IMG/VR virus record: IMGVR_UViG_3300025087_000800
Location: 1-24,847 of that record
Origin: a virus
Reading direction: 5' to 3' (one strand)
DNA: 24,847 bases
Position numbers and translations under genes: made by a program
The notes under the pieces: model-generated
Seen by the model: the letters and a program-made list of their open reading frames with translations, nothing else
Databases searched by the model: none
What the model was told of the DNA's origin: nothing
In this document: positions 1,026 through 24,703 of the stretch, in pieces
How positions within the stretch are numbered: position 1 is the stretch's first letter
How the letters are laid out: every line of letters starts with the position of its first letter

Positions 1026-2727
1026 AGATCACCGTAATCTGAAGTTGGTTAATATCGGTTGCCGGGAGGACGGCCATAATGTACGCCCCCGCCGCTATTC
1101 CGGGGTTGGACATTGTTCCATCATCCTCGCCCTCTCTGGCCGTACTCGCAACCTTGATTGCACTGGCCGTCTCAATAATAGTTTCGGTTCCCGACCAGTC
1201 GTTTTCGGTCGTTTCATAAAAATCCACAATGTAATCAGCCGGGGCCACCGGACGACACGACAATTTGATATGCAGAATGGTTATGCCGTTCGGAAACTCG
1301 TCGGAGTATATCGGAGCAATTATTATGGTGTCCTCCTCTACCCCGTCCGGGTTTGTGATTGTCGCCCGGAACGCCTTATACCCAGTCTCAATTCTTCCGG
1401 CTATTGACAACTTATCATCAATAGTCGCCGTGTCCGCATTAAGCCGCCCCGGAGTCACCGTCAGGCTGTCGATGGTGCAGTTCTCGTTAAAGACCAGCAG
1501 TCCAGCCCCCGTCTCATCGTCCATGATTGCGACCAATTCAGACGAGGCATCAATCTCGGCCTCTTTCAGTATCGTAGCATCAGCCGCTTCGTAGTCATCC
1601 GCCCGCCCCGTCAAAGAATCAATTAACCTTTGATCTGTTACTAAAATACTCTCTGCGGCAGTAGAATCAGAACTATAAAAATCTACCGCCACGAACTTGC
1701 TGGCGACCTTCATATCGGGTGCGTCAATCGTCCCATCGACAATCTCGGCACTTGCGATTGTCTGACCAAGATGTGATAGGGCGAGACCGGCAGTATCTAT
1801 ATCCTCGAAACCTATTACGGCATTGCCAAACACAGTCGAATCGAATGTTTTCCAATAAAGACTATCCCCCAATGCTCCGGTCGAATCATGGAATAATAAA
1901 ACCTGCCCCTCTGATGGAGCCTCCTCAGACACGCGTATATTGCGAATCGAGTCAGCATCGCCGTGACCAATCAACTGATACCGGGCGTCACCTTCATTGA
2001 TGCCAAGAACCGAATCGTTCAAAGTGCCACCAGTTTCATCTGCCGCCCAATACGTTGAATCCCCAGCCGTTCCGGTTGAATCTTTGAACTTGAGGACATA
2101 ACCATTGGTAGGAATAACCGTGCTGAACGTATATACATTCGGGCCATGACCATAAGTCAGATCGGTGATTGAGGTCATACCCGAATCGCCCACAATCACA
2201 GACCCGGACAACTTGATCCCGGTATTCGGAGATTCAGGCGCAAACACTGACCAGACCCCGCTATCGGTTTCAGTCGTGTATTCCAGTCCATTTCCCGAAT
2301 CACGGGTAAAGCCTTTCGTCGCCAATCCAGCCGCGCCGCTCTGAATCCCAGTATCGACATCATAATAGCCGTCAGAACCAAAATCGGTAAACCCATAAGC
2401 CACGGAATCGCCAAAATTCCAGCCACCAGCCGCATACCGGCCCGTCAAGTTGACCATGCTGTCCAGCAACACCGAATCAAGGTGGAGGTCACCCGTCCGC
2501 GCAAATTCGATATAATTGTTAATCAGTAACGAATCGTAAGACGATAACCCCGACCCACCGGCATCGAACACTATGTTAGTCCCGTCGCTGTATACCTTTA
2601 ACGTGTCGGTAGTGAATATATGATAACAGGTATCGTTTCGACAGGTCAACTTGTAGCGCGGCGGGAACGTTCCTGCCCATGTATCGGCACACAAGAGAAC
2701 GATCAACAATAATAGCCACTTTTTCAT
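1012..2727 (-). CDS. Putative tail fibre/appendage protein with signal peptide
   Basis: 571 aa. It begins with a classic signal peptide (MKKWLLLLIVLLCADTWAG, cleavage near residue 19). The body is rich in Gly, Asp, Ser and Thr, as in fibrous beta-structured phage proteins. It holds two related segments at about 208-227 and 274-292, each with V-L-x-F-x-DSTG-x-x-GDS-x-YW. A segment at 324-343 (AEIVDGTIDAPDMKVA) resembles the short beta-hairpin repeats common in tail fibres. The C-terminal 100 residues look like a compact beta-sandwich ending in strand QLQITVIYEV. The start ATG overlaps the methyltransferase stop as ATGA. Fibre is inferred from composition, repeats and location after the tail genes. 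No chaperone or depolymerase motif is recognised. The signal peptide is unusual for a phage fibre. Confidence 0.6.
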   Translation of the reverse strand: MKKWLLLLIVLLCADTWAGTFPPRYKLTCRNDTCYHIFTTDTLKVYSDGTNIVFDAGGSGLSSYDSLLINNYIEFARTGDLHLDSVLLDSMVNLTGRYAAGGWNFGDSVAYGFTDFGSDGYYDVDTGIQSGAAGLATKGFTRDSGNGLEYTTETDSGVWSVFAPESPNTGIKLSGSVIVGDSGMTSITDLTYGHGPNVYTFSTVIPTNGYVLKFKDSTGTAGDSTYWAADETGGTLNDSVLGINEGDARYQLIGHGDADSIRNIRVSEEAPSEGQVLLFHDSTGALGDSLYWKTFDSTVFGNAVIGFEDIDTAGLALSHLGQTIASAEIVDGTIDAPDMKVASKFVAVDFYSSDSTAAESILVTDQRLIDSLTGRADDYEAADATILKEAEIDASSELVAIMDDETGAGLLVFNENCTIDSLTVTPGRLNADTATIDDKLSIAGRIETGYKAFRATITNPDGVEEDTIIIAPIYSDEFPNGITILHIKLSCRPVAPADYIVDFYETTENDWSGTETIIETASAIKVASTAREGEDDGTMSNPGIAAGAYIMAVLPATDINQLQITVIYEVD

Positions 2728-3239
2728 GTTTGATAAACCTCACCTACAAAAAATCCGGGGATAATCCATTTTCTTTCAGTCAACCACCAGTCTGACATTT
2801 GACCATTCATCTTAAAATCAGCATGGAGTTTAATTCCATGTTTAGGAATAATGGTTTTTAACACATTCCATCCCAGACCTTCTGGATACGTTATAATAAG
2901 TTGCCCTCGACATACTCTATGGCACTCCACGAGGGTCGCAACGGGATCGGACGTATGTTCAATAACGCCGATCAAGCAAACCGTATCAAAAGACTTATCA
3001 GAATACGGTAATTTCTCAGCCCGACAAACATCAACTTCGATACCAAACTTATTATAATCTATTATATCGCACGATGTCACGTCTGGATAGATAGCCCCAA
3101 CAACACCATCGCCACAACCGACATCAAGGACTTTACCGGAGATATACTTATCAACAAAACCCAGTTGCCGCTTGGCAAGTAATCGGGTAGGCCAATTCTT
3201 CTGACCGGAAATGTATTGCTGTCTAATCATTTCAACCAC
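2724..3239 (-). CDS. Class I SAM-dependent methyltransferase (Methyltransf_11-like)
   Basis: 171 aa. Motif I is clear at residues 37-45 (VLDVGCGDG), the SAM-binding loop. An acidic stretch follows at 57-61, then a motif-IV-like segment FDTVCLIGVIEH at 84-95, typical of small-molecule or glycan Methyltransf_11 enzymes. The chain is short for the family, and the C-terminal part (from about 115) may be a substrate-binding cap. I chose the GTG at 3239 because GGAG lies 4 nt upstream; an ATG at 3230 is the alternative. The GTG overlaps the stop of the 33-aa gene by 1 nt and the gene ends in an ATGA overlap with the fibre. The substrate is unknown. A role in modifying glycans, with the glycosyltransferases in this block, is inference. 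Confidence 0.8.
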   Translation of the reverse strand: MVEMIRQQYISGQKNWPTRLLAKRQLGFVDKYISGKVLDVGCGDGVVGAIYPDVTSCDIIDYNKFGIEVDVCRAEKLPYSDKSFDTVCLIGVIEHTSDPVATLVECHRVCRGQLIITYPEGLGWNVLKTIIPKHGIKLHADFKMNGQMSDWWLTERKWIIPGFFVGEVYQT

Positions 3240-6500: not shown

Positions 6501-7844
6501 GTCAAGTTTGCGCCGGGACTTGTCGGATAACGTACCCTTTTCGGGTATAGTCGTACCCTTTTCCGGTACAACTGTTTTTGAGACAGAGGGGACTACTTCT
6601 TGCTTCCCTTGCGGGACTTCTTCCTTGACCCCTTTCCGCAGGGCATCGGGCAATCCTTTCTGCTGTTCTCCACCAATCGGAGGCGCAAACGGACGTTCCG
6701 GCGTCGGGATATTCCCCAACGGAGCCTTTTGTCCAGCCCCCCGCTGATAGGTATATGGTTTAACGGTAGCCGTTTGGCCCTGTTCATTTTGACGGATCAT
6801 TTCGTCTATGGTAACACTCTCCGAGTTCATCTTCCTGATGATCGGATCGGAAGATGTCTTGGCCGCAAAGTTTAATATTGTTCCAATATCACCCGGCGGG
6901 GTTCCCCTCGACACAGCATCCAACATCTTCTGCATCTCTTTGGTATAACCCATCCCGGCCCACATTGATTCGGGAACCTTCTTATAAGCATTTCTTACAT
7001 CGCGGGCAATCTCTGGAATAGAGTAACCCTTCCCACCCATCAACCCCAGAGTGGCTCCCTGAGCCAAGTCGGACGTAATCTCCTCTACACTTCCCCCTCG
7101 TAAAACCGTTGGTAATGAAAACAATGTTCCACCGGCGGCAGATCGGGCGGGTGCAGACAAATACCCTGTTGCACCCAAAGATTTCAACATGGCGGCATTG
7201 CTTATGCCAGCCTGTAACATACCAGCCGGATTATCGGGAGAAACAGATGCCGCGCCAGATAAAAATCCGGCCTTCCCCATCCCGCCAGTCAGTCGGTCAA
7301 GCGTCAAGAGTTGTGCAATTTCTCCCGGAAAAGCCATTAACCCAGAAGCGGTTTTCTCCCCAAAACCAACAGGTTCACGACTCGTGATAGCCCCACGCCA
7401 TTGTTCCGCGCCAGACCTCAACTTTTCCGAAAGACCTTTTCCCGTGCCATAGACCTTACTCAGTAAGTCAAGAACATTGGCAGTCTTTTCGGCTGGTCCC
7501 GCGATCAATTCTCTCGCGGCATACTTTACGGGATACGTCGCCCGATCAACGATATTCTCCGGCTCCGGTTGCCACGGAAACCTGTCTCTTTTATTCAACC
7601 CTAAGGGTGCCCGTAATCCAGTCGCCGCTTCCCATTGTTCGGGAGACTGGGGCTTATTCTCGAACGGAAGTTTAACGTCCGTCGATACCGCCGGTTGAGA
7701 TGTTACGTCAAGGCCAGACAGTTGTGGTTTCTCTACCGCCGGCGCAAAATCGGCGGGGTTGTAGGACGCGGTGTCCTCTTTCATAAATTCATCAAAGCTC
7801 ATCTTGGGCTTTGACTTGTTCATAAATTCATCAAAGGTAGGCAT
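3537..7844 (-). CDS. Giant internal virion/polyvalent-type protein, 1435 aa
   Basis: The largest gene in the window. The N-terminus has two copies of an FDEFM motif (residues 4-8 and 17-21). Residues about 105-260 are Gly/Ala-rich and amphipathic. A Pro/Lys/Glu-rich linker spans about 380-490, then long charged coiled-coil-like helices (about 500-1035) include three exact-period 41-residue repeats (801-923) and a degenerate one (about 980-1032). The C-terminal 400 residues (IANETINTMRTLKATADMSA, SKYAAVPFFAPKFALSRIQY and later Gly/Ala hydrophobic stretches) resemble the C-terminal domains of phage polyvalent or DNA-ejection proteins (LPD38-like, from memory). The end is a short LEPLPG repeat. 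It is not an N4 virion RNA polymerase: no polymerase motif was seen. Its place after the tail hub suggests an internal virion or ejection protein. Confidence 0.7.
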   Translation of the reverse strand: MPTFDEFMNKSKPKMSFDEFMKEDTASYNPADFAPAVEKPQLSGLDVTSQPAVSTDVKLPFENKPQSPEQWEAATGLRAPLGLNKRDRFPWQPEPENIVDRATYPVKYAARELIAGPAEKTANVLDLLSKVYGTGKGLSEKLRSGAEQWRGAITSREPVGFGEKTASGLMAFPGEIAQLLTLDRLTGGMGKAGFLSGAASVSPDNPAGMLQAGISNAAMLKSLGATGYLSAPARSAAGGTLFSLPTVLRGGSVEEITSDLAQGATLGLMGGKGYSIPEIARDVRNAYKKVPESMWAGMGYTKEMQKMLDAVSRGTPPGDIGTILNFAAKTSSDPIIRKMNSESVTIDEMIRQNEQGQTATVKPYTYQRGAGQKAPLGNIPTPERPFAPPIGGEQQKGLPDALRKGVKEEVPQGKQEVVPSVSKTVVPEKGTTIPEKGTLSDKSRRKLDRQEELLAKQRKPVAATEPPPTEPPKPPEKPVVEKPEPMNIRGLNVEENEALRAKIGKESLNDYQRKSQMETAQRAKDANMDERALEIADEAIRSKRMVTDEESYGMVIKSVKLEKEYEASVKTQAELVERGNLGGAELERARSERIIDDLDKLTEGARLGRREVARSLAAGIMKTDPADYSLARAVQEVTAKSKKPIDKVKHAELEKTINERDTLRKQVDELEARNDKMVADMEKAVAEKVAKIEAGRARVKKVIGEKKQKLAVERENIKKQLRDLGLRVNDISGLSTEGSYLVGKLAVNYIREGTTTLEGVVKQVLSDMPELTERDVWQALNARDPKRIAKARAEVEKKIAELKTQARLLDTLEDAKGGKFREPMAAKQQPAQIVALQKQIAELKKQDRLRHNIERAKQGEFNKPRQLPKPSPEIQKLQKELSDLVLENRLQSKVERAKQGIFDKRKPALDRPENVVALRKTLRELRSLAYRTASTDVKLQRSLKTLNELQDQLDNHYRNIKKKRPADPKVLADIKEKISLVRKEMRIEDTMTDLQEQMRTGEFKIKPERKPVPPELERKQVALRAARKKLRILMAESGPKTAGKVTGKIANETINTMRTLKATADMSATLRQGLLLAVQKPSAFPREFGRAFRATFSKYKSEQYDNMWRNDPRFYLAEKAKLHWSELDGVPNAKEEMFMANMIEKVPGVGHLIKASNRHMTTFLNGMRKASFDFYLDKYPNATPQELQRWANFVNICSGRGNMGRADFLSKYAAVPFFAPKFALSRIQYPFMGLREMRNPRVRKEIALNYVRLASAGLVTLGLAKLAGMEVGDDPRNSDWGKIKSGGTRIDIFGGLQQPMRVVTRLGVAATDKWGWTGDGLSKSEKRLDVVDFVGRSVAYKLSPVMTFGIEELQGRPLVGKPRGWEDRALDMITPMVVSDIEDAWRLEGPGRAAAVGGLTFFGIGASTYDKNKKTSNKSGLEPLPGLEPLPRLEQ
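5076..5444 (-). repeat. Three 41-aa tandem repeats within the giant protein
   Basis: Residues 801-841, 842-882 and 883-923 are three units of exactly 41 residues. The shared pattern is an aliphatic/charged start, RL, then a helix ending in AK-x-G-x-F, a proline-containing linker, then a second helix with V/I-x-x-L-x-K/R-x-L/I. A longer diverged unit (924-979) and another good match (about 980-1032, with RTGEFKIKPERKPVPPELE) follow. Each unit looks like a helix, a short proline hinge, then a helix. Confidence 0.8.
7780..7836 (-). repeat. 18-bp direct repeat encoding the duplicated FDEFM motif
   Basis: TTCATAAATTCATCAAAG occurs at 7780-7797 and again at 7819-7836, 39 bp (13 codons) apart. On the coding strand both encode SFDEFMK/TFDEFMN-type sequence at the very N-terminus of the giant protein. 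Perfect nucleotide identity suggests a recent duplication or strong constraint. Confidence 0.85.
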
Positions 7845-14221: not shown

Positions 14222-15484
14222 TCAATGATACGACCAGAGGCCGATACACCACTTCGAGTTCAGGGCTTTAGGAACAAACGCAAACGTCCAGCCAACCGTC
14301 GAATATCGGTTGAGCGGGTTTGAGGTGTCCTGAGGTCCCGGATTCTTGATGATAATCTTGGCCTTATTCTGGCCGGGGAACGACGTTACACCGAAGGCCT
14401 GTTGACCCAAGAATAATGAGGTGTAAACCCGTCCCGTAGCCGAATAGGTCTGAGTCGTGTTCGTGTTAGATTTCCAGTTCTGAGTCGCCTCAATAAACCG
14501 GAAACCATGCATCCTGCCGACCTCGCCCTTGTAATATCCACCTTCGGGTTTGTAGTTCGTCATCGTGGTGAACCGGCTATCCGACATCAAGTCGGCCATA
14601 ATATCCGGGTCCATAATGGCGACATAATACCCGTCGCTGAATTTAGGGGCAAGGTTCTTGGTCAACTTAGCTTTGACCTCTCGGAGAACATTATAAGTAG
14701 GAATGTCCGCAGTCGTCAAGGCCGAAGTCCCGACAAGGGCGAATTTCGAGGATGAATCACAAGCCGCCTCAAATCCGGGGCTGACCGTGATCGTACCCCA
14801 TGTACCGGCGGAAGCGTAGTCGGTTACATACCGGGTCTGACCTTCGTTAGTTCCGGCAGTGATACAAATAAGTCCGCCGCCCTTTGCATCCTGACAGTTC
14901 CACCAATCAGCAGTCGTCCCGACCGTAGCCGAAGCGCACATGACCGAAGTTGAGGTGTTACTGGTCGTCTCGTGCTGTACAGCCACATTGTACAGGGCCA
15001 GCGAAGCCGCCGAGTTACTCTGATACTCGTCAACCCGCATCGGCATCATACCGTAAAGAGCGACCTCATTCCACGTTTTCAGATCAATGGTACGACCGGC
15101 ATGGTCGCCCCACAAACCGACAACGCCCTCAAGATCGCGGTCGATATGAGTGTCGGACACAATAGACGAGTGCTGCGAGAACGCGCCATACTCGACTATC
15201 GTAGCATTGATTTCCTGACCGGAAATCTTGGTCGCGTCAGGGTTAATACCCTCAGTCAACGCGCTATAAGCAGAGGCCACGGGAATTTCATTATACCTGA
15301 AATACCGGACCTGTTTACCATTCCCTTTCGGGAGAGGCCGTCTCTGACCAAACGGATAAAGCACAACGGTTTCTTGCGCCCGCGTAAGAAACTTGCGGTC
15401 GTAGAAAATAATATTACCGAAACCGATGTTACCGGTACTGGTCTGATAAGTGCCATCGCCAAATGTTGAATACCAATCAGCCAC
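14222..15484 (-). CDS. Major capsid protein, N4-gp56 family
   Basis: 420 aa. The N-terminal part has the N4-gp56-family pattern: FYDRKFLTRAQETVVLYPFG (27-46), RRPLPKGNGKQVRYFRYNEI (48-67), LTEGINPDA (76-84), INATIVEYG (92-100), then an A/D-x-D-x-x-x-E helix region (109-140). A beta-rich insertion lies at about 168-258 (GQTRYVTDYASAG ... SKFALVG), followed by the P-domain-like C-terminal part (PTYNVLREVKAKL, YYVAIMDPDIMADL, RMHGFRFIEA). It starts with GTG (AAGGA 12 nt upstream), which is unusual for a highly expressed capsid gene; no in-frame ATG fits. It follows the scaffold gene after 16 nt. Confidence 0.9.
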   Translation of the reverse strand: MADWYSTFGDGTYQTSTGNIGFGNIIFYDRKFLTRAQETVVLYPFGQRRPLPKGNGKQVRYFRYNEIPVASAYSALTEGINPDATKISGQEINATIVEYGAFSQHSSIVSDTHIDRDLEGVVGLWGDHAGRTIDLKTWNEVALYGMMPMRVDEYQSNSAASLALYNVAVQHETTSNTSTSVMCASATVGTTADWWNCQDAKGGGLICITAGTNEGQTRYVTDYASAGTWGTITVSPGFEAACDSSSKFALVGTSALTTADIPTYNVLREVKAKLTKNLAPKFSDGYYVAIMDPDIMADLMSDSRFTTMTNYKPEGGYYKGEVGRMHGFRFIEATQNWKSNTNTTQTYSATGRVYTSLFLGQQAFGVTSFPGQNKAKIIIKNPGPQDTSNPLNRYSTVGWTFAFVPKALNSKWCIGLWSYH

Positions 15485-18061: not shown

Positions 18062-18285
18062 TCCGCACCCATTGAAAAAGAGACTAAGTCCTTTGGATCA
18101 TTAGGCAATCCGAGTTTTTCACGCATTACTTTTGCTTCTTCTTCTTTCGCTATTATATAATCTCCAACTGGATATATGCTGGACATATCATCGGGGTCAT
18201 GCCCCGGATAGAATTTCTGAAACATCTTCTTACCAAATTCCTCCATTGGTATAATAAAAAACGAAGTAGAACAAAAATCACTCAT
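18055..18285 (-). CDS. Unknown 76-aa protein
   Basis: Starts at ATG 18285, overlapping the portal stop as TGATG; a GTG 3 nt upstream is an alternative. It begins MSDFCSTSFFIIPMEEFGKK, then a charged segment with PGHDPDDMSSIYPVGDYIIA and a basic/acidic helix EEEAKVMREKLGLP. No family recognised. It is soluble, short and lies directly after the portal, where many phages keep small accessory genes. Confidence 0.6.
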   Translation of the reverse strand: MSDFCSTSFFIIPMEEFGKKMFQKFYPGHDPDDMSSIYPVGDYIIAKEEEAKVMREKLGLPNDPKDLVSFSMGAEW

Positions 18286-20270
18286 CACTGCATCCTTCCT
18301 ACATGGGTATCATTTCTATCGTTGGCGGAGCGATTCGCCTCCGCTTCCGTTCTTGGTTGAGGCGTACGGGCAGAATCGGGTTGCTTACTATCGCCCCCTT
18401 GACTGCCCATAGTCGCCTCCTGACCAGACATCATTTTCATCATCGCCATCTCCTGCAACAACTGCGCCAACGCCATCTCCTGCTGGTCGTCCATAGTCGT
18501 TGACGGCAGTATCTTGTCGATCTTATCCTGTTGCCATGTCCATTGATCGTACAATTCCGCCAGAAGTAGATCGACGCGAGGCCATAGATTCGGAGGGTAT
18601 CCCATATTGGCGTACAGGGTCATCAGGTTCATCAATGGTTGCAACGTCTGGATAATCTGTTGAGCGATAATTCCACGCTGAGTTTCCCGCGTCGAAGCCT
18701 CACAAATAAAATCGACATCGGCCCGTATCTGTGCCGGAGTCATAGTCCGCCACTCAAGACCGCGTTCGCCGATCACCGAAATCACATACTCGTTGGTGAG
18801 ATAATACGAATTGATCGAGTTGCGCTTCTTATACAATGGCCGGACGAAAGTCCTCTCCCAAGTACGGATATAATCGTTAATACCGATCTTGGTTTCCATT
18901 GCCAGAATCTCGGCCTCACCCAACGTCTCGACGCCGGTCTGGGCGATTCCCTCACTCTGATCCTTGATACCAGAAACGCTCTGGCCCATCGTCCGCAACA
19001 TCGACAACCCATTATACAAATCGGGAGATAACGACGGGACATCAGGATAGAACACGGCTTTAGTGACATCATCCCGGTCCTCGACCTCAATAGTCTCATC
19101 GACCGAAGTGTTGATCTGAGCCGGGTCTTTAATGGCGTCGCTGTTAACAACCTTCGGACGCTTAACCAACTGCCGAAGATTGGAAAACCACAACCCCATT
19201 ACCGAATCAAGGGCGTGCTGAATCCCGTGGAAATTATCGACGAACCTCTGACCGATAAGCTCACCGAACTCCTCGATCAAAGAACCGACAATGATATTGG
19301 TTCCCTTAAGCGGGAATGGCTTATAATCGAACCTGACCAGCGTATCCTCATACTGCGTGCCCGTAACCACACCAATCACATAAAATCCAGCCGGATACTT
19401 TTCGCCATTAGAATCGTCCACTTCATCAGCCGGATCATAGTAACCTTGCCATTCCAGATAAATACAATGGTCGGAGAAATACTTCTTATCTACCTCAAGT
19501 CCAGCCAGCCGACGGCGTTCCCGAAGATTATCGTTCTGGGAACTGGTGTCTCCGCCCTGTTCGGAAGTCTTTTTAACCTTGTCTCGATTGAAGAAATACG
19601 TTTCATTGAAATAACTGGGGCGTCTACGAGAGCGGATAATAAATGGTTCGCGGTCCTCGACCGTTTCCTTTTCAGGGGTAAAGAAGAAATCGAACACGTC
19701 GATCAATTCCAACGACGCACCGAGGTAAGTAGGGTACTCGACGATCTTCGGTACGCTGACCGTAATCGGAGTGCCGTCCAGATTAAGGGCCGGTTGACCC
19801 ATATCGTCCATGATGGGTTGTTCTTCGTTGACAACCGTCTCGTCGAACTCTTTCTTAAACACTATCTGGGCCGGACAGATACCATAGATGGCGGCATTGA
19901 GAACGCCCTTCGCGTTCTTGCTCTCGATCTCGTCCTCAGAATCCTGATAATCGAACATCTCCCGCTTAGCGACCGCCTCGCGCTCGTCGGTTTTCTCCCG
20001 GCCATAGATCGAACAAGGACGGTTTTTATAAAAGAGCTTTTCACGGACGCGCTTGACAAGACTATTGACTTGCTCGGTCGTAAAGGGAACTGGAAAGCGG
20101 TTGTTCTTTTCTCGCGAATGGATATTGGTACTCAGTTGAGACGACCGATAATGCTCATACCGTTCCAAACATTCCGTATGAAACGGGCGCAGAAATTCCT
20201 CGGATCGCTCAAAATCCTTGAGAACCTTTTCTACCGCCTTTTGTTGCCAGTCTAAGGTTTCTTCTTCCAT
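18285..20270 (-). CDS. Portal protein
   Basis: 661 aa. The N-terminal helical region (RYEHYRSSQL, NSLVKRVREKLFYKNRPCSIYG), the clip-like segment, the long central region (LERRRRLAG, GERGLEWRTMTP) and the length fit podovirus-type portals. Position next to terL and before the scaffold supports it. The C-terminal 60 residues are Gln/Met-rich helix then Ser/Gln/Asn-rich (QQEMALAQLLQEMAMMKMMS), probably a barrel or disordered crown. It forms the dodecameric ring at one capsid vertex through which DNA is packaged. ATG 20270 overlaps the zinc-ribbon stop as TAATG. I am confident from context and general sequence character. I cannot assign a specific portal subfamily. Confidence 0.85.
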   Translation of the reverse strand: MEEETLDWQQKAVEKVLKDFERSEEFLRPFHTECLERYEHYRSSQLSTNIHSREKNNRFPVPFTTEQVNSLVKRVREKLFYKNRPCSIYGREKTDEREAVAKREMFDYQDSEDEIESKNAKGVLNAAIYGICPAQIVFKKEFDETVVNEEQPIMDDMGQPALNLDGTPITVSVPKIVEYPTYLGASLELIDVFDFFFTPEKETVEDREPFIIRSRRRPSYFNETYFFNRDKVKKTSEQGGDTSSQNDNLRERRRLAGLEVDKKYFSDHCIYLEWQGYYDPADEVDDSNGEKYPAGFYVIGVVTGTQYEDTLVRFDYKPFPLKGTNIIVGSLIEEFGELIGQRFVDNFHGIQHALDSVMGLWFSNLRQLVKRPKVVNSDAIKDPAQINTSVDETIEVEDRDDVTKAVFYPDVPSLSPDLYNGLSMLRTMGQSVSGIKDQSEGIAQTGVETLGEAEILAMETKIGINDYIRTWERTFVRPLYKKRNSINSYYLTNEYVISVIGERGLEWRTMTPAQIRADVDFICEASTRETQRGIIAQQIIQTLQPLMNLMTLYANMGYPPNLWPRVDLLLAELYDQWTWQQDKIDKILPSTTMDDQQEMALAQLLQEMAMMKMMSGQEATMGSQGGDSKQPDSARTPQPRTEAEANRSANDRNDTHVGRMQ

Positions 20271-20500
20271 TATTTCAAGAACTCCCCAATTTTAGTATTA
20301 GTTATTTCGTCCTCGACCGATTTACCATTGGGAATAATGGCCGTCTTTGTCTTTCCTGCCACCTCATCAAGAACAGCCTCCAATTTTTCAATAATGTCGG
20401 TACAGGCCGGACATGGCGCATCGTACTCAACATTAAGACCGGCAATAATATCCTGAATCGTTACGTACCCCTTATCATTGCAGGCCGGACATTTACTCAT
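20270..20500 (-). CDS. Small zinc-ribbon protein
   Basis: 76 aa from ATG 20500, chosen because GAGGGG lies 5-6 nt upstream and the reading frame upstream of it belongs to no recognisable protein. Two CPAC knuckles (C4/C7 and C30/C33), the first as CPACNDKGYV, resemble the DnaJ-type CxxCxxxG repeat and would bind one zinc ion. The C-terminal half is charged and probably helical. It overlaps the 30-aa membrane peptide by ATGA and the portal by TAATG. Function unknown; possibly a partner of terminase or portal. Confidence 0.7.
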   Translation of the reverse strand: MSKCPACNDKGYVTIQDIIAGLNVEYDAPCPACTDIIEKLEAVLDEVAGKTKTAIIPNGKSVEDEITNTKIGEFLK

Positions 20501-20589
20501 AATATCCCCTCGTTCCGCCGGATAAACCAACCAAAGATAATAGGCCAGCCAAGCAAGATGAAATTCCAAATTGGAATATCACAAACCAT
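20497..20589 (-). CDS. 30-aa membrane peptide
   Basis: From ATG 20589 it encodes MVCDIPIWNF, then a hydrophobic stretch (ILLGWPIIFGWF) and a basic tail (IRRNEGIL). One transmembrane segment with positive C-terminus. GGAG lies 8 nt upstream. The stop overlaps the zinc-ribbon ATG as ATGA. Its ATG also overlaps a TAA that closes the old terL reading frame (DEFTGLEWK), suggesting that it once followed terL directly. Function unknown. Confidence 0.5.
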   Translation of the reverse strand: MVCDIPIWNFILLGWPIIFGWFIRRNEGIL

Positions 20590-20600
20590 TATTTCCACTC

Positions 20601-20619
20601 CAATCCTGTGAACTCATCT
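20601..20619 (-). repeat. 19-bp direct repeat, copy 2 (after zinc-ribbon insertion)
   Basis: CAATCCTGTGAACTCATCT matches the copy at 20819-20837 at 18 of 19 positions, offset 218 bp. In the reading frame of terL it encodes DEFTGL, the same residues as the end of the present terminase, followed by EWK and a stop. The copies flank most of the 73-aa zinc-ribbon gene. Confidence 0.85.
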
Positions 20620-20835
20620 GTAGTCCTCCTGTTGTCCAATCGGTTTGCACGGGTCAATAGGAACGCCCGAAGATGTCCAAAAAGCAGGCCAGTAATCATA
20701 ACATTTAGGACAAGACCAATATCCCCTCGCTCCATTATACTCACATGGAATATCGGGCCATTGTGGTGTTGGAACAAAGTCCATCTCTGTCCCACATTTA
20801 CATTTCTTCTTGTTATCACAATCCCGTGAACTCAT
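20614..20835 (-). CDS. Small zinc-ribbon protein inserted at the 3' end of terL
   Basis: 73 aa. The start, ATG 20835, lies in the last codons of terL, with AGGAG 8 nt upstream. The cysteines C6, C12, C14, C31, C42 and C45, with KCKCGTEMDFVPTP and YWSCPKCYDYWPAFW, resemble a zinc-ribbon head. It ends with QQEDYR. A second frame covers the same DNA (20589-20819), but its protein has no sign of selection except the DEFTGLEWK end shared with terL. The gene looks like an insertion flanked by a 19-bp direct repeat. Function unknown. Confidence 0.65.
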   Translation of the reverse strand: MSSRDCDNKKKCKCGTEMDFVPTPQWPDIPCEYNGARGYWSCPKCYDYWPAFWTSSGVPIDPCKPIGQQEDYR

Positions 20836-22471
20836 CTACACTTCTCCTCTCCGGCTTGTAATACGTCCGCCGCTTGCGGTTCGGATCACCAGCCATTAAA
20901 ATATACCGACAGTTGTCGATATGGTCATCATCGACACCACGGACCTTCTCCCGAAACGTCTCCTCGTCCTGCTTCTGTAACCCCTTATATTGATAATGCT
21001 GCATCTGCCACGGCAACGACGCACACCGGAACCCGTCCACCACCGCCCCAGACCCGTAATCGCAACTCTGGAAAACCTTAAACTTCCCGGACTTCAAATA
21101 CTCCCAGAACTTGTATATCCCGGCCTCAAACTTCTTCTCACTCGACTGGTTCGTCCCAAATATCCGTAACCCGTTTGGGTCCGAACGTAACATCTTTATA
21201 ACCGATTCCTGACCAAAAATATCCTTACCCGTCCCGCCCTGGGCCTCGTCCGCCAACATCAAAACCACATTCTCACCGGCGTTCTTGGCCCGTATAAACG
21301 CCTTCAAATCTTCAACCGTCATCTTCTGATGACCTTCAACCCCCCATAACGACCGATAAACAAACGCCTCGCCCTCATCCGACCACGCTACCCAATCCAA
21401 AGCCGTCGGTTTCCGACGATGGGGGTCAATACTCAAGACCCTCGGCCAATGAGTTGGTATCTCAAAGTCTGCAACAACGTGCACATTCCGGCTCCACATC
21501 GGCATAACCAATCCACTCAGCGAAACAAACCGCCCCTCTAACTTAGCCGCCGCCAACCGCTCATCCGTAATCGAAGCCTTGACCGCCGCCACACCCTCCT
21601 GAGACAAATACGGGTTCCGCTCCGTCGAGAAAAACCAGTGATCAACCGTCAAACCCTCCGGCGGCTCCATAACATGACCCTCTTCCCAAACTAGTCCCAA
21701 CTCCGGGGTCATGCTCCCGACCAAATATCCGTTGTAATCCGCCAACCGCATCGAGTTTTCCCGATATATCGCCTCAATCCCATGCTCATCCATATAAATC
21801 GCATGGCAATCATCACCACCATAACTGCCCGGAGCCGCATCCCATTGCTTATATGTCATAAACTTGACCTGCGACCCATTGGCGAAATACAATACCCGGC
21901 TCCCCTCACTCCAGGCCTTATCCCAACTGCCACCCCGCAGCAAATACCGGGGCACTAATTGCTGGAATTTTTTTAAAATAACGCCGCGGATACTGTCTTC
22001 ATACGTAGGCGCGCAATACCGAATATACACCGGGGGGGCAAAACGAGGATTTGAATTTTGGTCGAGATGGTCGGTAGGGGAACCTACATTCCCACCGCAT
22101 TGAATCGGGGCATCGACACCGGGGGGCCACCCCGCCGTAAACCTGCCTGACGGACTGGCTGACCTTACCGGGTGCTCCCCTGCCGCGAATAGGATACAAT
22201 CAACAACAGCCGATTCAGTCTTGCCCGACCTATTACCACCAAACACCCAACGCTCACGAGACGGGCTATAGAAGAACCCTATCTGGTCGTTATACGGCGC
22301 GGCAGACGGTCTAAATGTCCAGAGCCGTTCGTAATTAGCTCGGTAACGTAACTTCTCGGTTGCTCTGATCTTCTGCTTGAGCAAGTCTCGCGTCGATAAG
22401 CCCTGTAGATCGGCCGGCAAGTTCCTGGAGTTGTTCGGTCGTGAGTTCGTCAAGTATTTCCTTATACTCAT
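20816..22471 (-). CDS. terL: Terminase large subunit
   Basis: 551 aa. ATPase: Walker A GGNRSGKT (78-85), Walker B AIYMDE (224-229, Asp228/Glu229), a C-motif-like GSMTPE (252-257). Nuclease domain: LSIDPHRRKPTALDWVAW (346-363, Asp349), a second acidic site VVLMLADEA (Asp408), and VDDDHIDNCRYILM (513-526) as the third. The motor cuts concatemeric DNA and drives it through the portal. The N-terminus up to about residue 45 is encoded inside terS in another frame. ATG 22471 has only a weak Shine-Dalgarno, so a later TTG start is possible. The gene ends in the repeat DEFTGL followed by TGA. Confidence 0.93.
   Translation of the reverse strand: MSIRKYLTNSRPNNSRNLPADLQGLSTRDLLKQKIRATEKLRYRANYERLWTFRPSAAPYNDQIGFFYSPSRERWVFGGNRSGKTESAVVDCILFAAGEHPVRSASPSGRFTAGWPPGVDAPIQCGGNVGSPTDHLDQNSNPRFAPPVYIRYCAPTYEDSIRGVILKKFQQLVPRYLLRGGSWDKAWSEGSRVLYFANGSQVKFMTYKQWDAAPGSYGGDDCHAIYMDEHGIEAIYRENSMRLADYNGYLVGSMTPELGLVWEEGHVMEPPEGLTVDHWFFSTERNPYLSQEGVAAVKASITDERLAAAKLEGRFVSLSGLVMPMWSRNVHVVADFEIPTHWPRVLSIDPHRRKPTALDWVAWSDEGEAFVYRSLWGVEGHQKMTVEDLKAFIRAKNAGENVVLMLADEAQGGTGKDIFGQESVIKMLRSDPNGLRIFGTNQSSEKKFEAGIYKFWEYLKSGKFKVFQSCDYGSGAVVDGFRCASLPWQMQHYQYKGLQKQDEETFREKVRGVDDDHIDNCRYILMAGDPNRKRRTYYKPERRSVDEFTGL
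20819..20837 (-). repeat. 19-bp direct repeat, copy 1 (end of terL)
   Basis: CAATCCCGTGAACTCATCT at the end of terL, 18 of 19 identical to the copy at 20601-20619. It carries the last codons of terL and the start codon of the zinc-ribbon gene. Confidence 0.85.
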
Positions 22472-22796
22472 GCTTCTGGACTATCTCACCTAACAGCTTG
22501 GCACGTAAGTCCAGAACAGTCAAGGCGTTGCGGACAGTCTCGACTTTCAGCTTAGCCCAGTCAATACCTTGTACAATGCGATTGATAATGGCTAAGGTGC
22601 TATTGTCTCTACGTTTATCCAGTTCATAATACTGGATATGGCGCGAAACGCAGTTTTTATCGAGGCCGGAGAACTGTCTTATCAACTCCGCCTGAGTCGC
22701 GCCGGACAGATATTCTTCCTCTATTTCCTTAAGCTGTTCATGCTGACAGACTTTGCATTGCCATTGGTGGCTTTTTTCTACCTTATTTTCGGCCAT
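22335..22796 (-). CDS. terS: Terminase small subunit-like DNA-binding protein
   Basis: 153 aa. The N-terminal part, CKVCQHEQLKEIEEEYLSGA (14-33), matches phage HTH proteins that begin with a CxVCxH zinc knuckle and continue with TQAELIRQF and CVSRHIQYYEL (49-59), where C49 and H53 would complete a zinc site. A helical oligomerisation region (66-120) and a charged C-terminus follow. It lies immediately before terL, overlapping it by 137 nt in a different frame. This supports a small-terminase role: recognising the packaging start and recruiting TerL. The ATG at 22796 follows a G-rich GGCGGGAATAGAGA leader. Confidence 0.8.
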   Translation of the reverse strand: MAENKVEKSHQWQCKVCQHEQLKEIEEEYLSGATQAELIRQFSGLDKNCVSRHIQYYELDKRRDNSTLAIINRIVQGIDWAKLKVETVRNALTVLDLRAKLLGEIVQKHEYKEILDELTTEQLQELAGRSTGLIDARLAQAEDQSNREVTLPS

Positions 22797-23073: not shown

Positions 23074-23135
23074 GCATTATTTTGCATTTGTCCAAAAATA
23101 ATACATATAAAAACTAATAATTATATAAAAAACAC

Positions 23136-23165
23136 TTGACAAACAGAATAAAAACCCGATATTGA
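23136..23165 (+). promoter_or_regulatory. Sigma70-type promoter for the rightward block
   Basis: TTGACA (23136-23141) with TATTGA (23160-23165) at 18-bp spacing, preceded by an A/T-rich UP-like tract (AATTATATAAAAAACAC). The upstream AAAAAACACTTGACAA matches the promoter at 24191. Transcription would begin near 23172, putting the hairpin 23176-23190 at the 5' end of the mRNA. Confidence 0.6.
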
Positions 23166-23190: not shown

Positions 23191-23192
23191 TA

Positions 23193-23208
23193 ACCATTAA
23201 CGAGGGAG
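23193..23208 (+). promoter_or_regulatory. Conserved leader/RBS motif, copy 1
   Basis: ACCATTAACGAGGGAG, 5 nt before ATG 23214. The motif ACCATTAAYGRRGGAG recurs before all four plus-strand genes. The 3' part is the Shine-Dalgarno; the ACCATTAA part is extra. Confidence 0.8.
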
Positions 23209-23477: not shown

Positions 23478-23490
23478 AGATAGAAAGCAG

Positions 23491-23505
23491 ACCATTAACG
23501 GAGGA
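23491..23505 (+). promoter_or_regulatory. Conserved leader/RBS motif, copy 2
   Basis: ACCATTAACGGAGGA followed by a short A-rich spacer to ATG 23514. It matches the first 10 nt of the leader exactly, with a 1-nt shorter purine run. Confidence 0.75.
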
Positions 23506-23513
23506 ATAGAAAA

Positions 23514-23943: not shown

Positions 23944-24190
23944 CTTTATTGTTGGTTACGAGCCGACATTCAAGGCGCACCTGTCCACTTTAGTTGTTTA
24001 CTCTGTCCGGCTCTGTTTCCAGTTGGCGACGCCGGTGATCCGTATCAATAAAAACCGTGGGCAGGGCTATTGTTTCAAGCCATTTTGGTTATGATAACAC
24101 CCGCCAGCCAATCTGTCAAGCAAAATCTTCACTTTCCCGGTAAAATCTTTACCTGAATAAAAAAAACTATAAAAATATGTAAAAAAACAC

Positions 24191-24219
24191 TTGACAACAA
24201 TTAAACTATTTTGTACATT
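24191..24219 (+). promoter_or_regulatory. Strong sigma70 promoter before the 120-aa gene
   Basis: TTGACA (24191-24196), 17-bp spacer, TACATT (24214-24219), with an A-rich UP-like tract. AAAAAACACTTGACAA is shared with the promoter at 23136. Confidence 0.8.
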
Positions 24220-24239
24220 ATCCGATAGAGAGAATAGAA

Positions 24240-24255
24240 ACCATTAACGAAGGAG
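24240..24255 (+). promoter_or_regulatory. Conserved leader/RBS motif, copy 3
   Basis: ACCATTAACGAAGGAG, 8 nt before ATG 24264, about 13 nt after the predicted transcription start. Confidence 0.8.
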
Positions 24256-24679: not shown

Positions 24680-24687
24680 CGCAACTA

Positions 24688-24703
24688 ACCATTAATGAAG
24701 GAG
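24688..24703 (+). promoter_or_regulatory. Conserved leader/RBS motif, copy 4
   Basis: ACCATTAATGAAGGAG, 8 nt before ATG 24712; one C-to-T difference from the other copies. Confidence 0.8.

Follow-up and report, generated by a model that had tools for sequence, protein, structure and literature searches.

In the Cluster I mycobacteriophage Island3, gene 68 is a small gene without homologues that is absent from its Cluster I relative Brujita, and the tail of the upstream gene 67 is repeated at its far end over ~50 bp, corresponding to 18 C-terminal residues; the authors proposed recombination between short repeats (Pope et al. 2011, PMC3029335). In the Cluster C1 phage LRRHood, the extra DNA carrying genes 43-46 has 29-bp direct repeats on either side, and the single repeat copy of its relatives is located at the extreme 3' end of a gene (PMC3029335). 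Morons, which are single genes inserted between two genes that adjoin in relatives, usually carry a promoter and a terminator of their own (PMC3029335).

Island3 gene 68 and LRRHood genes 43-46 are the closest published precedents for the locus described here, which follows the terminase large subunit gene (terL) of a virus. A single virus record of 24,847 bp was analysed in full and is referred to below as the window. As in Island3, an extra small gene is present whose far end repeats the tail of the upstream gene, the direct repeat that flanks it being derived from the 3' end of that upstream gene. In Island3 the repeat comes from gene 67 and shares the frame of the new gene, whereas in the window it comes from terL and the new open reading frame (ORF) reads it in another frame; moreover, the empty relative of Island3 is close and directly alignable, whereas the window has distant relatives only. 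LRRHood and the window share extra DNA placed between direct repeats derived from a gene 3' end, but this DNA comprises 1.35 kb and four genes in LRRHood, with the single copy in close relatives, and 218 bp and one gene in the window. The locus is also moron-like in having extra DNA between terL and the portal gene, which are contiguous in relatives, but with three small ORFs rather than one. Unlike in morons, the terL tail provides the start and stop codons of the window gene, which appears to be translationally coupled.

Results

The structural genes of the window are on the minus strand. The terL gene (20816..22471, minus strand) encodes 551 aa ending in ...YKPERRSVDEFTGL and was recognised by PHROG (phrog_2, terminase large subunit, E 5.9e-20) and by alignments. 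The same structural run contains a small gene ahead of terL (22335-22796), the portal gene (18285..20270, minus strand; 661 aa), which was identified by Pfam SU10_portal (E 1.1e-14) and by synteny, and the gene of a major capsid protein of the N4-gp56 family (14222-15484; E 1.1e-48). At the far end of the run, a methyltransferase-like gene was observed (2724-3239, minus strand; Methyltransf_11, E 3.2e-11). The interval between terL and the portal gene is 546 bp long and holds three small ORFs.

Elements of another kind were found among the plus-strand small genes. The 17-bp start-associated sequence AACCATTAACGAAGGAG occurs on the plus strand at 23192-23208, 23490-23506, 24239-24255, and 24687-24703 with 0-3 mismatches, and begins 22-25 bp before the ATG of four of these genes, with 0.05 expected by chance. 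It recalls the start-associated sequences of Cluster K mycobacteriophages (PMC3203893). An identical 16-bp repeat, AAAAAACACTTGACAA, which includes a -35-like TTGACA, is present upstream of plus-strand small genes at 23127-23142 and 24182-24197 (plus strand), and these sites are probable repeated early promoters.

Subsequently, the direct repeat at the end of terL was characterised by a repeat search and by alignment. Copy 1 (20819..20848, minus strand; AGGAGAAGTGTAGATGAGTTCACGGGATTG) consists of the last 10 terL codons (RRSVDEFTGL), and copy 2 (20601..20630, minus strand; AGGAGGACTACAGATGAGTTCACAGGATTG), a second terL tail reading RRTTDEFTGL, is located 218 bp downstream. The initial annotation had reported a likeness of 18 in 19 bp at an offset of 218 bp. 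This was reproduced for the repeat core, AGATGAGTTCAC[G/A]GGATTG, and the similarity was found to be 30 bp long, not 19, with 25 of the 30 positions identical. It covers the Shine-Dalgarno-like AGGAG and the ATG of the zinc-ribbon-like ORF, both located in copy 1, whereas copy 2 contains the stop codon (TGA) of this ORF. In the terL frame, the copies differ by two synonymous substitutions and by three that replace S and V by T, and these S/T and V/T differences fall at positions variable in the family.

The repeat exceeds what is expected by chance. The 18-mer of the repeat has exactly two occurrences in the window when up to 3 mismatches are allowed (0.03 expected), and no pair within 1 kb with at least 18/19 or at least 25/30 identity was obtained in 60 dinucleotide shuffles of the window. 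Within the same distance, two pairs reach 18/19 in the real window, the terL-tail repeat and one in a coding repeat near 7780, and a single pair, again the terL-tail repeat, reaches 25/30. When viral contigs were scanned with the 18-mer, six hits were obtained, every one in unrelated genes, and the 18-mer was absent from all related TerL loci.

In the terL frame, copy 2 reads ...RRTTDEFTGLEWK and continues with EWK and a stop codon (20589..20600, minus strand), which overlaps the start codon of a 30-aa hydrophobic ORF as TAATG. The translation of copy 2 thus ends in DEFTGLEWK at 20589, in agreement with the terL end and the TAATG link that had been deduced initially by joining the repeats.

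The first of the three ORFs encodes a zinc-ribbon-like product of 73 aa (CKCG...CPKC; 20614..20835, minus strand). It starts within terL, which it overlaps by 20 bp; copy 1 provides the ATG and copy 2 the TGA. These limits, and the end of terL in DEFTGL at 20816, were confirmed as annotated. The product matched Pfam A2L_zn_ribbon with an E value of 0.0088, below the cut-off, and has both the CKCG and the CPKC knuckle; it is probably zinc-binding. A single-sequence structure model gave a pLDDT of 54, which was too poor for use. The codon usage of the ORF is near neutral (-4.5 bits), its own frame being the best of three. No homologues were found in phages, and none of 13 related records matched, an empty result that is weak with so short and divergent a query. 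Judging from its size and place, the protein is most likely an accessory cargo protein binding zinc. Furthermore, no nuclease, transposase, or integrase was detected among the ORFs of the 218-bp insert by Pfam and PHROG profile searches, the repeat search showed no inverted repeats at either end of the insert, and no intron or other RNA family of Rfam was matched at gathering scores, the insert being 218 bp long and mostly coding.

The 30-aa hydrophobic ORF behind copy 2 (20497..20589, minus strand) is single-TM-like, with a hydropathy of 1.76 over 17 residues, and its coding status is weak by codon usage. The next small gene encodes 76 aa with two CPAC knuckles (20270..20500, minus strand), overlaps the portal start by TAATG, and is clearly coding (codon usage +21 bits). 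A PHROG match (phrog_7664, E 1.7e-06) was obtained with the N-terminally extended ORF; the search for relatives yielded no more than two weak matches in phages (E 0.7), and the related records had none.

The repeat search also revealed a secondary repeat, with one copy inside the zinc-ribbon-like ORF (20718..20733, minus strand) and the other in the ribosome-binding region of the 76-aa gene (20501..20516, minus strand). These are identical at 15 of 16 positions and sit on almost the same diagonal as the main repeat (spacing 217 vs 218). The probability of such a match by chance is ~3e-4 for random window pairs near one diagonal, and the significance falls to 0.25-6.6% when the whole interval is scored with gaps. 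In addition, the portal start region GGGGAGTTCTTGAAATAATGG (20268-20292) resembles the end of copy 2, GGAGTGGAAATAATGG (20587-20606), on the minus strand. The statistics of this likeness are weak: ~0.7% of window segments score equally high, and it is the best among the other 65 TAATG sites.

No close relatives were found by TerL, portal, or capsid peptides in the viral and genome collections searched, and the nearest TerL was ~30% identical to that of the window. Distant relatives were obtained by a portal-based search with alignment queries, which gave eight loci (L250-L257). In the seven with a detected terL (L250-L256), the portal start ranges from 11 bp within terL to 1 bp past its end. 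In L257, where terL was undetected by tblastn, a terL-like ORF with the ending TTGY is followed within a few bases by the portal gene. An N4-type capsid gene is present in all eight, with a GT-like gene beside it in five, in the same order as in the window. None of the eight has a gene between terL and portal, and their sequences are too divergent for an alignment of the repeat itself. Since terL and portal adjoin in these relatives, the 546 bp with three small ORFs in the window are regarded as derived.

In the TerL tails of L250-L255, 4-11 further residues come after a conserved TG(R), and L256 has RGR at this place. These tails (TGRxxGV...) are extended past TG as DEFTGLEWK is, and resemble it more than DEFTGL; hence DEFTGLEWK is plausible as the older terL end. 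This hints that copy 2 may represent the older end and that TerL may now be three residues (EWK) shorter. The initial annotation regarded terL as preserved, and the gene is indeed still intact, but EWK would have been lost if copy 2 is the old end. It also suggested looking for genomes that lack the 218-bp segment. No zinc-ribbon gene was found at the terL end of the relatives, whereas a genome with the 218-bp segment exactly missing and terL ending in DEFTGLEWK was not found in the collections searched.

A second TerL clade (L015, L174, L020, L259, and L261) was also compared. Its TerLs are 62-67% identical to that of L015 and about 28-30% to that of the window, and their tails, Y-x-P-x-R...TGY, match YKPERRSVDEFTGL of the window. 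The zinc-ribbon gene is absent behind terL in all five members, and the site is variable in gene content. In L015, terL is joined by TAATG to a 30-aa hydrophobic ORF; the similarity of this ORF to that of the window is not significant (shuffle p 0.19), and the link is therefore a mere positional parallel. In L020 (4620-5079) and L259 (up to 1818), TerL has no stop after TGY and runs into a hydrophobic tail of ~21 residues. An HNH endonuclease gene (Pfam HNH) directly follows this fused tail in both, and homology of the 30-aa ORF of the window with their hydrophobic ORFs was not significant. Another small gene is located behind terL in L174 and L261. The HNH genes thus share with the window gene their place right after terL, but they encode a nuclease and no terL-tail repeat stood out beside them, whereas the window gene encodes no nuclease.

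When 247 TerL loci were scanned for a repeated terL tail, the window scored 16, L214 scored 14, and the best control 14; such a repeat is a rare or short-lived phenomenon. In L214 (2100-2275), one copy of a 14-bp repeat, GGGAGATTCTGATG, marks the terL end and another the portal start, with a 52-aa gene between them. A second gene may thus have been acquired between terL-tail copies in L214, but a ribosome-binding site explains part of the repeat and one control reached the same score.

Discussion

We consider it probable, though by no means assured, that this lineage acquired the 73-aa gene at a position between terL and the following gene, with an ectopic crossover as the likeliest event. A gain in the lineage of the window, rather than repeated losses, appears best supported because both the portal/capsid relatives and the second TerL clade are without the zinc-ribbon gene. 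The repeat, which is beyond chance and placed exactly at the ORF limits, also argues for a gain. The initial annotation had suggested a homing-like or recombinational insertion; the contiguous terL and portal genes of the relatives agree with a recombinational gain, but with neither a nuclease nor an intron found, the homing-like character was not borne out.

In the proposed event, one ectopic (unequal) crossover would have occurred between two related phages. The left part, consisting of terL and the zinc-ribbon gene, would derive from one parent and the right part from the other, beginning inside the terL tail of that parent, so that the sequence past the zinc-ribbon gene would be joined at a point ~30 bp from the end of the shared terL tail. 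In one step, this would give a product with a terL tail on either side of the new gene. The AGGAG...GATGAG in the terL tail would supply a Shine-Dalgarno sequence, an ATG in one frame, and a TGA in another. Because the tail offers these signals together, the new ORF would be bounded exactly by the repeats, opened by copy 1 and closed by copy 2, and could be translated by coupling to terL. Thanks to its start and stop signals, the terL tail may be a favourable landing site. The differences between the copies fit two terL alleles, as expected, but five in 30 bp are too few to separate two diverged parents from one old duplication. Several observations count against this crossover or are left over by it. 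No close relative is present in the collections, and so neither a parent nor an exact empty site was seen; the codon usage of the zinc-ribbon-like ORF is near neutral; and the secondary repeat and the likeness at the portal start are unaccounted for.

The secondary repeat is a point in favour of a tandem duplication, in which a ~218-bp unit of terL tail and zinc-ribbon gene would have been doubled on the spot, the 30-aa ORF and the beginning of the 76-aa gene being what is left of the second unit after decay. Its near-identical diagonal is rarely matched by random pairs, and a CPxC knuckle is found near the matching place in both the zinc-ribbon and the 76-aa genes. However, the stretches between the repeats are no more alike than chance (X/Z, global p 0.61 and local p 0.32; Y/Y', p 0.28 and 0.60), while the repeats themselves are 83-94% identical, and the 73-aa and 76-aa proteins are not significantly similar (shuffle p 0.16). 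We regard this reading as unlikely, and the dissimilarity of the intervening stretches led us to reject a plain 218-bp tandem duplication as the main explanation. Insertions that restore a 3' end are usual for site-specific elements, and the HNH genes of L020 and L259, although in a distant TerL clade, indicate that the site accepts such genes. A homing endonuclease, small transposon, or integrase with target duplication is nevertheless very improbable here, since the 218-bp insert encodes none of these enzymes and has neither terminal inverted repeats nor an Rfam-matched RNA element, and since the repeat has mismatches and is longer than usual for the target duplication of a transposon.

The repeat might instead be a functional signal, either a terminase recognition site or a shared translation-start element, and not a scar. 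In favour of this, the repeat includes both a Shine-Dalgarno-like sequence and a start codon, Cluster K mycobacteriophages are known to share start-associated sequences (PMC3203893), and this phage has its own element of that kind before four early genes. We nevertheless think a signal very unlikely: the repeat has two copies only in the window, 17 bp of the match extend from the ATG into coding sequence, copy 2 opens a 12-codon frame only, and the early-gene element differs in sequence, while the 18-mer occurs in none of the related TerL loci. Purine-rich ribosome-binding regions are alike by function, and chance or convergence could in principle have produced the likeness, but this is extremely improbable given that none of the 60 shuffles equalled it, that the match reaches far past the ribosome-binding site, and that L214, with its 14-bp repeat, is the only one near among the 247 TerL loci. 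A decidedly unlikely extension of the gain is that the terL 3' end is a recurrent insertion site in podovirus-like phages, at which the tail is copied for each gene added. Successive small genes would then stack behind terL, each bounded by a terL-tail copy; the window would record two gains, one represented by copies 1 and 2 around the zinc-ribbon gene and the other, which would have brought the next two genes, by the weaker likeness of GGAGTGGAAATAATGG in copy 2 to GGGGAGTTCTTGAAATAATGG at the portal start, and L214 would be an independent case.

Taken as a probable gain by ectopic crossover, the locus is a clear example of a known, ordinary route of phage gene gain, caught with the scar still readable. 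It would indicate that the tail of an upstream gene can give a newcomer both its start and its stop signals, and would add a case outside the mycobacteriophages to the recombination pattern described in 2011. Furthermore, it indicates the terL/portal junction as a variable spot.
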